Assembly (NCBI RefSeq): GCF_012927485.1 | Contig: NZ_JABBPC010000013.1 | Location: 1 to 64,000 of the forward strand | Reading direction: 5' to 3' | DNA: 64,000 bases | Source of the DNA: Polaromonas sp. | GTDB lineage: Bacteria; Pseudomonadota; Gammaproteobacteria; Burkholderiales; Burkholderiaceae_C | Shown: positions 2,684 through 7,876 of the stretch, piece by piece | Position numbering within the stretch: the first letter of the stretch is position 1 | Layout: each line of letters begins with the position of its first letter | The notes under the pieces: model-generated | Seen by the model: only the letters and a program-made list of their open reading frames with translations | Databases searched by the model: none | Told to the model about the DNA's origin: nothing | Translations under genes and position numbers: made by a program

Positions 2684-2711
2684 ACTTAACATAATATACA
2701 TCGTGGAACAT
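2684..2711 (-). other. dif: Chromosomal dif site (left junction of the Xer element)
   Basis: XerCD recombination site for chromosome dimer resolution. On the plus strand: XerD arm ACTTAACATAA (2684-2694), centre TATACA (2695-2700), XerC arm TCGTGGAACAT (2701-2711). Against the E. coli dif read in the same direction the XerD arm matches 10 of 11 and the centre is identical; the XerC arm is divergent (3 of 11), as expected if it was brought by an inserted element. Written XerC-to-XerD the site is on the minus strand. Support from polarity: KOPS-type octamers GGGTAGGG at 1455-1462 (plus strand) and CCCTNCCC at 7774, 9899, 18796, 31911, 36275 and 53773 all point toward this site, with none found by eye pointing away. 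Confidence 0.85.
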
Positions 2712-2767
2712 ACAATCAAGGCCCGCAGATTCCCCTGAAAACCCGCCAAGCCCGGGAAAACCGCGCC

Positions 2768-3370
2768 ATGCTTAGTTCTCGCTTTAAAGTGCTGTGTGCC
2801 GATGCAGGTCTGTCTATTGAGGAAGCTGCGAAACTTCTTCACGTCACACCGCGCACGATTCGGTATTGGTTTTCCGGCAAAGTCGGTGTGCCATATGCCG
2901 CCTATAAATTGGTGCGGGTGCTGCGCTGGTTTGAGTTGCCAGGTCGGGAGTGGCATGGTTGGCATTTCCACGGCGGTAAGCTCTGGACGCCTGAGGGTCA
3001 TAGCTTCGAGCCTCATGACGCCACCTGGTGGTCGCTGCTGGTCAGACAAGCGCGCAATTTCAAGGTGCTATACCAACGTAACGGCCAGCTCTTACAGGCA
3101 CTTGGAGTCCATGGCATGGCAGCGCCGGTGGGCGCCGGGGATGCGTCAGCGTCCCCAGAGCCCTTAGGTGCTGTCGTGCCGGGGTCTGCGGCCACCGCCG
3201 CAGACCGGCGCGAAGCGCCGGGCTCTAATTTATTTATAGAACACTTTAGGAAATTAGGGGTCATCGATTCGCGAAAAACACTGCCTGTCATTGGAGAAGG
3301 CTCAAAGTGGTCAGGCCAGAGCCTGAAGGGTAAAGTTTCGCATGGTGGAAAACAAGGGGCGAGGGTATGA
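2768..3370 (+). CDS. XafT-like Xer recombination activation factor (VC1465 family), with long tail
   Basis: Residues 1-115 look like the VC1465/XafT family: N-terminal helix-turn-helix (LSIEEAAKLLHVTPRTIRYW, about 15-34), then the W/H/G-rich stretch WHGWHFHGGKLWTPEGHSF and ATWWSLLVRQAR. In TLC-phi this factor activates XerD-first recombination at the phage att site without FtsK, and here the gene lies directly beside the dif junction, which supports the same role. From about residue 117 the protein turns into a low-complexity Ala/Pro/Gly tail encoded by hairpin-forming DNA, so the functional protein may be shorter in relatives and the tail may be read-through of a structured segment. ATG at 2768; no strong Shine-Dalgarno. 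Its stop overlaps the next frame (ATGA at 3367). Confidence 0.8.
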   Translation: MLSSRFKVLCADAGLSIEEAAKLLHVTPRTIRYWFSGKVGVPYAAYKLVRVLRWFELPGREWHGWHFHGGKLWTPEGHSFEPHDATWWSLLVRQARNFKVLYQRNGQLLQALGVHGMAAPVGAGDASASPEPLGAVVPGSAATAADRREAPGSNLFIEHFRKLGVIDSRKTLPVIGEGSKWSGQSLKGKVSHGGKQGARV

Positions 3371-3665
3371 ACGCCCTCACCTGTCCTGAAACCGTCCAGA
3401 CGATGGTTCAGAGCTTGCCAAAGTGGGTGCCGGGGATGGTTCGGTGGTCGGTCAAAGTGGCTAATCATGGGCCGCGCTGGGTGCCGGTGAGGCTTCGAGC
3501 TGCACCGCTGTGGTGCATGGCGCGGATCGTTCGGAGGGCGGTGGATCGGCTGCTGAGCGCTGAAATAGGCGCACCGGGGTATGGGGTGCAACCCCATGGA
3601 AGCGAAGCGCAACTGACTGCGCCTTGGCACTGGTGGCATAGAAAAGCCAATCCCGCAGGGTTGGC
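3137..3665. repeat. Array of small stable hairpins inside the Xer element
   Basis: At least six inverted repeats seen by eye: 3137-3144/3149-3156 (8 bp, one G-T, loop GTCA); 3183-3192/3197-3206 (10 bp perfect, GGTCTGCGGC, loop CACC); 3207-3211/3215-3219 (GGCGC-GAA-GCGCC); 3501-3506/3512-3517 (TGCACC, loop GCTGT); 3581-3587/3591-3597 (ATGGGGT-GCA-ACCCCAT); 3646-3654/3658-3665 (GCCAA, bulged T, CCC-GCA-GGG, TTGGC). Three have GNA triloops, which make unusually stable DNA mini-hairpins. Such arrays are typical of single-strand origins and packaging signals of filamentous phages, or of a structured RNA. They overlap both reading frames of the element. Confidence 0.65.
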
Positions 3666-3855
3666 CCCCGACGCGAGGCACACCCTCAAAGCAGGAACAA
3701 ACGCGCTCACGCGCCATGAAAAACCTGACCCCGAACCCAGCGGCTCCGCAGGAACGCAGGACCCTGAATTTAGCGGCTCCGCAGGAACGCAGGACCCTGA
3801 ATTTAGCGGCTCCGTAGGAACGCAGGCTTCCAGCAGCGCCAAAAAATTTAACTAA
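3367..3855 (+). CDS. Hypothetical protein of the Xer element with 11-residue tandem repeat
   Basis: 162-residue reading frame whose ATG overlaps the stop of the XafT-like gene (ATGA), which suggests coupling. No domain is recognised. The first 120 residues are Trp/Arg-rich without clear signal peptide or membrane segment; the C-terminus is 2.6 copies of an 11-residue unit (GSAGTQDPEFS) encoded by a 33-bp repeat. The antisense strand is open over nearly the same region (3013-3882) and the DNA carries hairpins, so the frame may be open by base composition rather than selection. Real protein or structured non-coding segment cannot be decided here; a moderate confidence is given because of the overlap and position. 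Confidence 0.4.
   Translation: MNALTCPETVQTMVQSLPKWVPGMVRWSVKVANHGPRWVPVRLRAAPLWCMARIVRRAVDRLLSAEIGAPGYGVQPHGSEAQLTAPWHWWHRKANPAGLAPDARHTLKAGTNALTRHEKPDPEPSGSAGTQDPEFSGSAGTQDPEFSGSVGTQASSSAKKFN
3742..3830 (+). repeat. 33-bp direct tandem repeat, 2.6 copies
   Basis: Units at 3742-3774 and 3775-3807 are identical; a third partial copy starts at 3808 and diverges after about 20 bp with one early C-to-T change. Period 33 keeps the frame and gives GSAGTQDPEFS repeats. The near identity points to recent slippage or expansion. Confidence 0.9.
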
Positions 3856-3884
3856 ATTTGAAAGAATTTCCAATGGAATCAATA

Positions 3885-3912
3885 ACTTACGTAGCTATAC
3901 ATCGTGGAACAT
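3885..3912 (-). other. Right att junction of the Xer element (dif-like, degenerate XerD arm)
   Basis: Plus strand: ACTTACGTAGC (3885-3895) in place of the XerD arm, then TATACA (3896-3901) and XerC arm TCGTGGAACAT (3902-3912), the last 17 bp identical to the left dif copy. Only the first five bases of the XerD arm agree with the left copy, so XerD should bind poorly. In the integration model the XerC arm here is the original chromosomal one. Confidence 0.75.
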
Positions 3913-4743: not shown

Positions 4744-5534
4744 ACCAAAACCGTGGTAAACAGCTGCTCAAAGTTGCGGCTGGTCGCCTCGCCGATAGCA
4801 TCCAAAGGTTGTCGCTTGATTTCGGCAATCTGTTGCGCCACTAAAGGGACATACGATGGATTGTTGATTTTGCCGCGATAAGGCACGGGGGCCAAATAGG
4901 GACTATCGGTTTCGATCAGGATGCGGTCAAGCGGGACAAATCGGACTATCTCCCGTAGGTCGCCTGCATTTTTAAAAGTCAATATGCCTGAGAAGGAAAT
5001 ATAAAAACCGAGGTCAAGTGCAGCGCGAGCCACTGTTTCAGTCTCGGTGAAGCAGTGAAAGACGCCGCCTGCCCGCACTGCGTCTGCGTCCTCGCTTTTT
5101 TCTCTCAAAATGGAGAGAGTATCGTCCGAAGCGCTCCGGGTATGAATCACCAGCGGTTTCCCGGTCTGCCGAGAAGCTCGGATATGCACTCGAAAGCGCT
5201 CGCGCTGCCATTCCATGTCAGCTACAGTGCGCTCGCCAAGCCGAAAATAATCCAGTCCAGTTTCACCAATACCAACGACTTTCGGCAGGCTTGCACGCTG
5301 CACCAGGTCGGCCAGCGTGGGTTCCAGCACGCCTTCGTTGTCGGGGTGCACACCGACGGTTGACCAGAAGTTGTCATAGCGGGTGGCGAGATGGTGTACC
5401 GTCTCGAATTCTTCCAGCGTCGTACAAATGCACAGCGCCCTGTCCACCTGGGCGTCGTGCATGGCCTGGCGAATTTGCGGTAATTGGGCCTGTAGCTCGG
5501 GAAAGCTCAAGTGGCAATGGGAATCGGTAAACAT
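4740..5534 (-). CDS. tatD: TatD-family metal-dependent hydrolase (3'-5' DNase)
   Basis: 264 residues, the usual TatD/YcfH length. Metal ligands are visible: DSHCHL (HxH at the start of the barrel), GETGLDYF, VIHTRSA, FHCFTE and ETDSPYLAP, each in the expected order. TatD proteins are cytoplasmic nucleases that act on DNA and aminoacyl-D-Tyr-type substrates in quality control. The gene follows pilZ after 98 bp and runs into the ankyrin gene with a 4-bp overlap. YcfH-like rather than classical TatD of the tat operon, judging by its place beside holB; the two cannot be told apart firmly by sequence alone. Confidence 0.93.
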   Translation of the reverse strand: MFTDSHCHLSFPELQAQLPQIRQAMHDAQVDRALCICTTLEEFETVHHLATRYDNFWSTVGVHPDNEGVLEPTLADLVQRASLPKVVGIGETGLDYFRLGERTVADMEWQRERFRVHIRASRQTGKPLVIHTRSASDDTLSILREKSEDADAVRAGGVFHCFTETETVARAALDLGFYISFSGILTFKNAGDLREIVRFVPLDRILIETDSPYLAPVPYRGKINNPSYVPLVAQQIAEIKRQPLDAIGEATSRNFEQLFTTVLV

Positions 5535-5632
5535 TCAGAAAAATCTTTTAGGTATAAAACCTCTGCACAGCTTAAGCAGACCGTGCAACAAGCTGTTGAA
5601 ATAGTCGCGTCCGTTTGCCGTTCCAATACTGC

Positions 5633-6013
5633 CTAAATAGTCTGCGTGGGTCGGTCAGAGGCCAGATGAACGCCCAAGATTTCTTCAATCTTGATCTTCA
5701 GCAGGCGGGATTTCTCGTCGGACGGAAACCTTACACCAACGCCCTGTGTTCGGTTACCTGAAGCGCGCGGCGGGGTGACCCAAGCCACTTTGCCAGCCAC
5801 TGGATAGCGTTGGGTGTCATCGGGAAGCGTCAGCAAAACATAGACATCATCCCCAAGCTTGTACTCGCGGGTTGTCGGAATAAACACACCGCCTTCTTTA
5901 AACAAAGGAATGTAAGCGGCATAGAGCGCTGCCTTTTCCTTAATTGCCAGCTGAACAACGCTAGGCCGAGAGGTGGATGCGGCAGGGGAACTGACAGGTA
6001 ACTTGGTGCTCAT
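5633..6013 (-). CDS. pilZ: PilZ-domain protein, type IV pilus type
   Basis: 126 residues, a single PilZ domain: SVVQLAIKEKAALYAAYIPL then LFKEGGVFIPTTREYKLGD and a final beta strand GVGVRFPSDEKSRLLKIKIE. The canonical c-di-GMP RxxxR and DxSxxG motifs are not evident, as in Pseudomonas aeruginosa PilZ (PA2960), which lies likewise between holB and tatD. In that family PilZ works in type IV pilus assembly with PilB and FimX instead of binding the nucleotide. No pilus genes are in this window. It follows holB after 67 bp, apparently in the same transcript. Confidence 0.88.
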   Translation of the reverse strand: MSTKLPVSSPAASTSRPSVVQLAIKEKAALYAAYIPLFKEGGVFIPTTREYKLGDDVYVLLTLPDDTQRYPVAGKVAWVTPPRASGNRTQGVGVRFPSDEKSRLLKIKIEEILGVHLASDRPTQTI

Positions 6014-6080
6014 AAGGCGAGTTTATCGGTTTGATGGCCGAATTGCGATAGTTGTATGCCATTGCACGGTGCGTAGTCCG

Positions 6081-7196
6081 CTATTTGGCGTTAAGTGCTG
6101 CTTGGGCACGGCTGACCAACGACTCGAGCATCAAGCCCGGATTGTAAGGATGCTCCACGGTGCGAGTGAGCGCGGTTAATTCCTTGGACCAATTGGCAAG
6201 GGCGTAAAGACCAGGCCTGGCGGCAGGAGCGCTACCTGACCTGCTAGCGATCAGCGGAAGGTCGTCAGTGCTAAAAAAGCGCGGGGAAGCCCCCACCCTA
6301 AGCGCAAAAACGTCATGGCAAAGCTTCTGCAAAGCATCGACGGCTTGCGCGGGGGCCAAATGCGCCAATGCAGCGACCTCGCCCCGCGCCATGGCTTGCG
6401 GCAGGGCCTTCCAGTGCTCGGCAGCTTCCCTGGACGGACTATTTTGCGCCCAAGCCAGAGCATTGGCGGGGCGCCCGCCAGCCGCTATCAGCAACGTCTG
6501 CAAATCTGCCGTCCGGTGCGCGGGGGCAACCTTTTTGGAATTCCCCGCGCGCTCACCTAGGCGAGTAGTTTCATTTTCGAGCCAGGCCAATGCCTTATCG
6601 AAATTAGGCCAAACCATGGTGTGGCCAAGACAGCGACTGCGTAGGGTTGGAAGCAATTGGTGAGCCGCCTCGCTGGCCAGAATAAATTTAACGGGTCCGG
6701 GCGGCTCTTCCAGGGTTTTTAGCAGGGTATTGGCCGTGATGTTGTTCATGCGCTCGGCCGGAAACACCAATACCACTTTGGTGGTGCCGCGCGAGCGCGT
6801 GAACTGGGTAAATGACACGGCTTCCCGCGCTGCATCTACCTTGATTTCTTTGCTCGGCTTGCGCTTCTTGCTGTCTAAATCATCTTGCGTTTTTTCGTCT
6901 AGCGGCCACCCAAGGGCAAGCGACAAGGTTTCAGGCATCAGCATACAAAGGTCGGCGTGGGTGTGCACGTCCACAGCATGACAGCTGCCGCAAGTGCCGC
7001 AGGCACCATGAGCCGTAGCATGCTCGCACAGCCAAGCCCGAGCCAGCGCCAGCGCCAGCTCAAACTGCCCTAGCCCCGAAGGTCCGTTGAGCAGCCAGGC
7101 GTGCCCGCGTTGAGTCAGCAGGCTTTCCAGCTGGGTTTGCAACCAAGGAGCGAGGCGTTGGTCTTCGGCTGAGGTATCGGCACTTGCATCGCTCAT
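6081..7196 (-). CDS. holB: DNA polymerase III subunit delta prime
   Basis: Clamp-loader subunit. Near residue 38 [11 protein letters not shown] is the degenerate Walker A of delta prime (no Lys-Thr pair, so no ATP hydrolysis). The zinc module is complete: [17 protein letters not shown] has the four cysteines. Further on are [21 protein letters not shown] and TLRSRC (SRC motif contacting the neighbouring gamma/tau ATP site). The C-terminal collar domain is present; 371 residues is a little over the family norm, with a Ser/Lys/Arg insertion around 225-240. Its ATG overlaps the tmk stop by 4 bp; tmk-holB is a widespread pair. Confidence 0.94.
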
Positions 7197-7876
7197 GACA
7201 ACCAGCCTTTAGCGACGACAACCTGCCGCACCGCCTGCCAAACCGCGTCGCGGGTTTGGGACGCGTCGATGCGGGCGAAGCGTTCGGGATGGCCGCGCTG
7301 GCGATCAGCATAGCCTTGAGCCACCTTGCGGAAAAACTCCAGCGGTTGAGATTCAAATTTATCGGGTAGCCGTGCACCGGCAAGCCGCACTGCGGCCGCC
7401 TCAGGAGGCAGGTCAAACCAGACCGTGAGGTGGGGTTCTATGACGGTTTCAACTTCGGGTTTCATCGGCGAGTTCCCGGCCGGGTCGCCCAAAAGCCCTT
7501 CGTCGGATTGCACCCATTGCTCCAGGGTCGACAGCAAGTCCAGGTCAAAACCGCGTCCTCCCCCTTGATAAGCAAATGTGGCGTCGGTGAATCGATCGCA
7601 CAGCACCACGTCGCCACGTACCAATGCAGGGGCGATCACGTTCACCAAGTGATCACGGCGGGCCGCGAAAATCAGCAGGGCTTCGGTCAACGGATCCATG
7701 GCGTCGCCGAGCACCATGGCGCGAAGCTTTTCAGCCAGCGGTGTGCCGCCAGGTTCTCGAGTTAAGGTTACCGCCCTGCCCTGCGCACTAAACGCGTCAG
7801 CTAGACCCGAGATGTGTGTGGATTTACCCGCGCCATCTATGCCCTCAAAACTGATGAAAAGTCCGTGCATTGTCAT
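7193..7876 (-). CDS. tmk: Thymidylate kinase
   Basis: Phosphorylates dTMP to dTDP. P-loop [12 protein letters not shown] (about residues 9-20), [10 protein letters not shown] (substrate/LID-associated), [19 protein letters not shown] (DR(Y/F) motif and catalytic region) and [16 protein letters not shown] are in order. 227 residues is slightly longer than usual because of an insertion near residues 126-142 ([19 protein letters not shown]). ATG at 7876 or the in-frame ATG at 7870. Five bases separate it from mltG upstream and it overlaps holB by 4 bp, so all three are one transcript. Confidence 0.96.

Follow-up and report, generated by a model that had tools for sequence, protein, structure and literature searches.

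A 64,000-nucleotide stretch of DNA from Polaromonas sp. (contig NZ_JABBPC010000013.1, positions 1 to 64,000; hereafter the window) carries a small element inserted in the chromosomal dif site. The element spans positions 2695-3895 (1,201 bp centre to centre), has a GC content of 0.576 vs 0.518 in each flank, and is present as a single copy in the source genome. Its left junction is an intact dif; at the right junction the centre and the XerC arm (17 bp) are exactly repeated and the XerD arm is degenerate (Table 1). When up to 3 mismatches were allowed, the 17-bp repeat was found at two sites only in the window, the two junctions, and none of 100 shuffles gave two matches. The sole recognised gene, which starts 57 bp past the left XerC arm, encodes a XafT-like protein of DUF3653 (PF12375), the Pfam family to which the VC1465-like protein of the satellite phage TLC belongs. 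A Pfam scan of five open reading frames (ORFs) of the element gave DUF3653 and helix-turn-helix families for one ORF and none for the other four; no integrase was found among them, and neither the Pfam scan nor the Rep and Zot profiles gave a Rep or Zot match in the element. Insertion at dif with the centre and one arm duplicated, and no integrase of its own among these ORFs, place the element with the integrative mobile elements exploiting Xer (IMEXs), and the zot and rep genes that mark the Inoviridae were not found in it. XafT-type IMEXs, reportedly described by Midonet in 2019, are said to combine a XafT-like protein with Xer integration and to be widespread in beta- and gamma-proteobacteria; we take XafT to be this DUF3653 protein.

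Table 1. Features of the element and its junctions (window positions)
Feature	Position	Strand	Details
Left junction, intact dif	2684..2711	+	XerD arm 2684-2694 (ACTTAACATAA), centre 2695-2700 (TATACA), XerC arm 2701-2711 (TCGTGGAACAT)
XafT-like DUF3653 gene	2768..3370	+	200 aa; PF12375, E = 6.2e-11
Candidate class II plus-strand origin	3205..3251	+	Hairpin CCGGCGCGAAGCGCCGG (3205-3221), then AT-rich motif
Second ORF	3367..3855	+	162 aa; no family; status as gene uncertain
Hairpin GTATGGGG-TGCAA-CCCCATGG	3579..3599	+	Also in filamentous phages, close to zot in several; fold z = -2.50
Palindrome GAAAGAATTTC	3860..3870	+	36 bp left of right centre
Right junction	3885..3912	+	Degenerate XerD arm 3885-3895 (ACTTACGTAGC), centre 3896-3901 (TATACA), XerC arm 3902-3912 (TCGTGGAACAT)

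The identity of the site was examined in 87 genomes of the same genus. The 18-bp dif core (up to 1 mismatch) was found in 75 of them, once each in 72 of the 75, and its reversed control gave no match. In a single-contig genome (G086; 3,837,686 bases) the core lies at position 1,827,104, and the GC skew of eight sampled 20-kb stretches was positive in all four on the left and negative in three of four on the right (the fourth being 0.0003). Samples from a second genome (G017) were noisy and showed no switch at the core; in the window, the skew is mildly positive up to ~8 kb and mostly negative thereafter. For the survey of empty sites, 30 of 80 core matches were taken as loci (4 carriers and 26 non-carriers), to which 9 more were added, giving 39. 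In 11 of the 26 non-carrier loci, dif is 30-127 bp from the end of a neighbouring ankyrin gene; among the remaining 15, the gene is 234-1,191 bp off in 6 and absent from the locus in 9. Once the length of the element is subtracted, the same distance in carriers is 179 bp in the window (from a tblastn match), 80 bp in G014, 96 bp in G001, 136 bp in G051 (two copies) and 98 bp at a Ramlibacter locus (L003); in G054, where a 6.63-kb phage occupies dif, it is 71 bp after subtraction of the phage. The six non-carrier loci with the more distant ankyrin gene (L023, L035, L036, L038, L040 and L043) lack a DUF3653 relative, and other insertions are possible there.

The preliminary description of this DNA, made from the sequence alone, had proposed an insertion exactly at dif with a TLC-type footprint (a good XerD arm on the left and a degenerate one on the right), a XafT-like gene 57 bp inside, and no replication or integrase gene. 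The junction sequences, the 17-bp repeat and the identity of dif bear out the first two points, the PF12375 match and the start at 2768 the third, and the Pfam scan with the Rep and Zot profiles the last. Empty dif sites in relatives, named beforehand as a check and a further trait expected of IMEXs, were seen in the 11 same-genus non-carrier loci mentioned above. The window element is almost certainly a Xer-integrated mobile element.

Relatives of the DUF3653 protein were found in 8 of the 87 same-genus genomes, in 22 of 399 same-family genomes (19 of 141 genera), and in 13 of 300 order-level genomes, two of which were already counted. Among 36 copies of the gene from the genus, the family and named loci, 33 had a dif-type core 65-104 bp upstream, whose XerD arm scored 7-9 of 9 in 27 cases and 3-4 of 9 in 6. 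The 6 copies with a poor arm were second tandem copies, and this partition agrees with the prediction of the Xer insertion model. No dif-type core was found beside the other three copies (G062, G144 and G478); that of G062 (C26, 130819; L011, L048) lies 55 kb away from dif and has no dif-like site beside it. The 22 elements that could be delimited, including two identical copies in G051 and the Ramlibacter locus, are 1,078-2,728 bp long and share a compact layout; those left undelimited are the second element of G015 and the elements of G368, G126, G216, G037, G433, G409, G436 and G446. The two copies of G051 (1,345 bp each) are in tandem, and their left and middle XerC arms are the same whereas the right arm is not, a pattern that displacement of the host arm would produce. 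Two different elements occur in each of G199 and G271, and two gene copies in each of G015, G316 and G368; in G015 and G271 different elements adjoin one another. Four of the 14 order-level loci listed, all from other families, were examined for length; in each, the gene is flanked by two dif-type cores whose XerC arm is a different one, at a spacing of 1.56-2.03 kb. Among these four, the gene of G527 (L184) has an in-frame TAG and L187 has two poor XerD arms. The DUF3653 gene is under purifying selection: the ratio of nonsynonymous to synonymous substitution rates (dN/dS, NG86 method) was 0.05-0.45 over 96 codons in 10 pairs among five genes, with dS >1 in 7 of the 10 pairs.

One of the closest known systems is described in a review passage on TLC, which gives it a degenerate XerD site, no structural genes and an autonomous replication module (PMC4246890). 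The VC1465-like protein of TLC-Kn1 (HM134800) matched PF12375 at E = 3.8e-24, and the two TLC-Kn1 junctions likewise differ, one with a good and the other with a poor XerD arm. The window element resembles TLC of Vibrio cholerae in its position at dif, its degenerate XerD arm on one side and its DUF3653 gene by the junction, but differs in the opposite orientation of this gene and in the replication module, which was not found in it. Because of the latter difference, the element may integrate like TLC but is not classed as TLC. The 2.73-kb element of G316 (L096, minus strand 4971-7699, followed by a second DUF3653 copy) stands between TLC and elements like that of the window: it shares the insertion at dif, the DUF3653 gene, a class II motif (see below) and the lack of Zot with the window element, but carries its own G2P-type Rep, which brings it closer to TLC. 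The window element is set apart from other TLC-like IMEXs by the missing rep and by its size, and to our knowledge it would rank among the smallest integrating virus satellites. A literature search by title and abstract start gave, among the papers listed, none on rep-less DUF3653 elements, from which we do not claim that they are absent from print.

Inside the 3' part of the DUF3653 gene lies a hairpin followed by an AT-rich motif, resembling the one found beside rep in Zot-bearing filamentous phages. A class II profile built from six phage sequences, none of them from elements, had its sole significant match in the window at 3206-3251 (E = 1.9e-6; next match, E = 3.3), and the segment folded as single-stranded DNA with a z score of -2.62. 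The profile of motif I, the alternative class, had no significant match in the window (best E = 1.3), and the element is therefore not class I. One of the two motifs is present at index 470-540 in many elements: the class II profile matched 10 of the 22 at E < 1e-4 and G014 at E = 0.076, and the class I profile matched 4. The origin that a helper-dependent satellite would share with its helper is here a match in sequence (E = 1.9e-6), and we infer from it that the motif may act as an origin.

Both motifs are tied to filamentous phages in the IMG/VR database. Motif I was found in 28 contigs, inside the rep ORF in all 28 and with zot in 27, one of the contigs (L104) belonging to the training set of the rep and zot profiles. 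Motif II was found in 6 contigs, with zot in 5 and rep in 3, directly upstream of which it lies; the reversed patterns of both motifs gave 0 matches. In these six phages, the content in zot and rep and the upstream GC hairpin were unselected. Within the family, motif II occurred in 7 of 299 genomes: three in DUF3653 elements, one in a zot-rep prophage (G247) and three others. In a midpoint-rooted tree of 37 Reps, the 30 of class I were on one side, and the other side held the 6 of class II and the unclassified L116. The G316 satellite has its Rep on the latter side, in line with its class II motif. Four members make up the largest clade composed of class II Reps only (support 0.789). The class II Rep of L125 had no match at 1e-5 in named phage records, and its intergenic DNA gave short weak matches only, in tailed-phage records. 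These data suggest class I and class II pairings of Rep and origin for little-studied filamentous phages. The Zot-encoding phages (G054, G060, G247, L104, L125 and L129) carry a class I or II motif, as most of the delimited elements do, and some of them also the GTATGGGG hairpin and a dif-type attachment (att) core. They differ in having rep and zot, in their length (~6-7 kb in delimited or whole-contig examples) and in that no DUF3653 match was found in the viral contigs or in the G054 phage.

The second hairpin of the element, GTATGGGG...CCCCATGG, is a candidate packaging or intergenic signal, the former reading being suggested by its place after zot. Across 299 genomes the pattern was matched 16 times, in 15 of them, whereas its reversed form gave no match. 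Of the 16, 7 were in DUF3653 elements (6 genomes), 4 beside zot, and 5 in neither setting. A slightly shorter form was present in 12 of the 22 elements and in 13 of 34 motif-bearing viral contigs. In IMG/VR, the pattern with the longest stem matched once, in L104, a phage with Zot and Rep, and an extended pattern gave 0 matches.

Close to the right junction, the palindrome of Table 1 belongs to a pattern, GAA[AGT]nnn[CT]TTC, to which 13 of the 22 elements have an exact match within their final 60 bp and 8 more a match with one mismatch (none in G104). In 11 of the 13 it is at -35 to -37, the other two being at -33 and -45. The exact pattern was present in 1 of 22 phage att contexts, which include some near-identical phages or intact dif, and in 99 of 4,332 background 60-mers. 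The palindrome is a candidate binding site of the XafT-like protein. In the structure model of the latter, residues 5-52 form four helices of helix-turn-helix type. The confidence of the model (predicted local distance difference test, pLDDT) averaged 56.2, with blocks of 75-88 over residues 1-50 and low values from residue 113. A fold search of the PDB gave no match at E <= 0.001, its top rows being mostly helix-turn-helix regulators; in view of this and of the mean pLDDT, we assign no fold to the DUF3653 part.

Taken together, these observations lead us to a reading to which we give a probability of about 0.77: a Xer-integrated, rep-less satellite that would borrow the Rep and the virion of a filamentous helper, with a XafT-like factor activating XerD. 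The circular form would have a single attP made of the palindrome, the degenerate XerD arm, TATACA and the XerC arm, and, as read from the anatomy, XerC and XerD would recombine it with dif so that the left junction becomes an intact dif. Using its helix-turn-helix, the XafT-like protein would probably contact the palindrome and activate or recruit XerD at the poor arm, in which case FtsK would not be needed. The near-fixed place of the palindrome offers a target for studying how such a factor brings XerD to a degenerate arm. A co-infecting helper would probably replicate the element by rolling circle, since the element has no rep and yet its hairpin and motif resemble those next to the rep of filamentous phages with class II G2P-type Reps; we hold helper replication to be quite likely. 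Export in helper virions, for which the second hairpin might serve as packaging signal, is the least certain step, which we consider probable with less assurance. Such an element would be a natural phagemid-like satellite, and it makes testable how little DNA a filamentous-phage satellite needs. By a slight preponderance, we also favour the wider view that natural phagemids of this kind, from ~1.1 kb upward, are widespread, that their sole clear gene would be a Xer activator whose coding sequence doubles as the helper's origin, and that the activator would bind a palindrome beside a broken XerD arm, protein contact replacing arm recognition.

Several results weigh against this reading. Zot was detected in none of the 8 same-genus carriers vs 9 of the 79 other same-genus genomes. 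The PF23343 Rep, present in 8 of the 87 genomes of the genus, was found in only 2 of the 8 carriers (G071 and, weakly, G051) and not in the window's genome. In IMG/VR, the 59 stretches matching the pattern of a three-row DUF3653 alignment included no confirmed relative, and the right-end pattern gave 0 matches, so that no free form was seen there; the window protein had no relative at 1e-5 among phages and plasmids. Seven of the 22 elements have neither origin class, and G014 has its weak match only. The exact pattern of motif II is not matched by the motif in the window itself (0 for G000), and 3 of the 7 family genomes with motif II have no rep, zot or DUF3653 nearby, nor do the 5 hairpin matches outside elements and zot loci have any of the three in their locus. 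The six phages were chosen by a pattern drawn from the elements, which makes their core match partly one of construction, and the same applies to the class I split in the Rep tree, since motif I lies within rep. The palindrome was first spotted by eye in the same elements in which it was later counted, and TLC-Kn1, with its oppositely oriented DUF3653 gene, shows no such palindrome by eye. With no Zot in the carriers and no free form seen, helper dependence is argued from sequence rather than from co-residence. The helper phage that the preliminary description had introduced with a "perhaps" has gained support from the origin motif and the Rep tree, short of direct proof.

Within the genus, the prophage of G060, with zot, rep and a class II-like motif, is a possible helper type. 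In G071 the element bears a class I motif, and a class I-type rep is found at another place in the genome. A rep with a class I-like motif lies in G071 (C10, ~56633; L195, L205), off dif, and an ORF close to it resembles an integrase by eye. Profile searches of 26 delimited elements found Rep in 1 and Zot in 0.

The element might instead be a Xer-integrated one whose spread needs no phage: excised circles might, for example, be taken up by natural transformation, and the origin and hairpin would be inherited and unused. The eight carriers without Zot, the missing relatives in IMG/VR and the seven elements without a recognised origin class would fit this alternative, which is nevertheless unlikely, for 15 of the 22 elements (one weakly) retain motif I or II in a similar position and the rep of G316 is concordant with the class of its motif. 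Less likely still is a defective relic, left when deletions removed the genes of a larger filamentous prophage integrated at dif. The dif of G054 does hold such a phage, and neither rep nor zot is found in the window element, but the G054 phage has no DUF3653 match, and the compact layout of the 22 elements, the tandem copies and the purifying selection on the gene (dN/dS 0.05-0.45) argue against decay; of the two options of the preliminary description, a very small satellite or a defective relic, the former is thus favoured. A host-domesticated locus aiding chromosome dimer resolution is highly improbable, since, despite the position at dif and a gene that probably acts on Xer, no relative was found in 79 of 87 congeners, the GC content differs from that of both flanks, and different elements adjoin each other in G015 and G271.

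Other observations concern the element and similar loci. A 33-bp tandem repeat (2.7 copies; window 3739-3826) lies within the second ORF. Read in another frame, a small ribbon-helix-helix-like ORF at L045 (5969-6340) overlaps DUF3653 in its 3' part, and other elements have similar ORFs; the one tested that matched gave a weak HicB match (0.019). Short ORFs resembling phage lysis genes by eye occupy the left flank of the Ramlibacter element (L003, 5000-5900), which another element may adjoin. Two loci with a class II motif and no DUF3653 match are possible further elements: the motif is preceded by a dif-like core at a distance of 728 bp in L158 (G146) and 664 bp in L159 (G322). Pairs of dif-like sites were also seen elsewhere. 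In G001 (C17, 42253 and 43295; L051), two sites with the centre TGTACA are 1,042 bp apart on a contig other than that of dif. Two exact dif cores in G072 (C18, 311; C82, 84) each lie close to a contig end, perhaps as a broken array. In G003 (C3, 126974 and 151776; L052, L053), two sites with the centre GATACA and identical near flanks are spaced by 24.8 kb on a 207-kb contig, and perhaps delimit a Xer-flanked segment.
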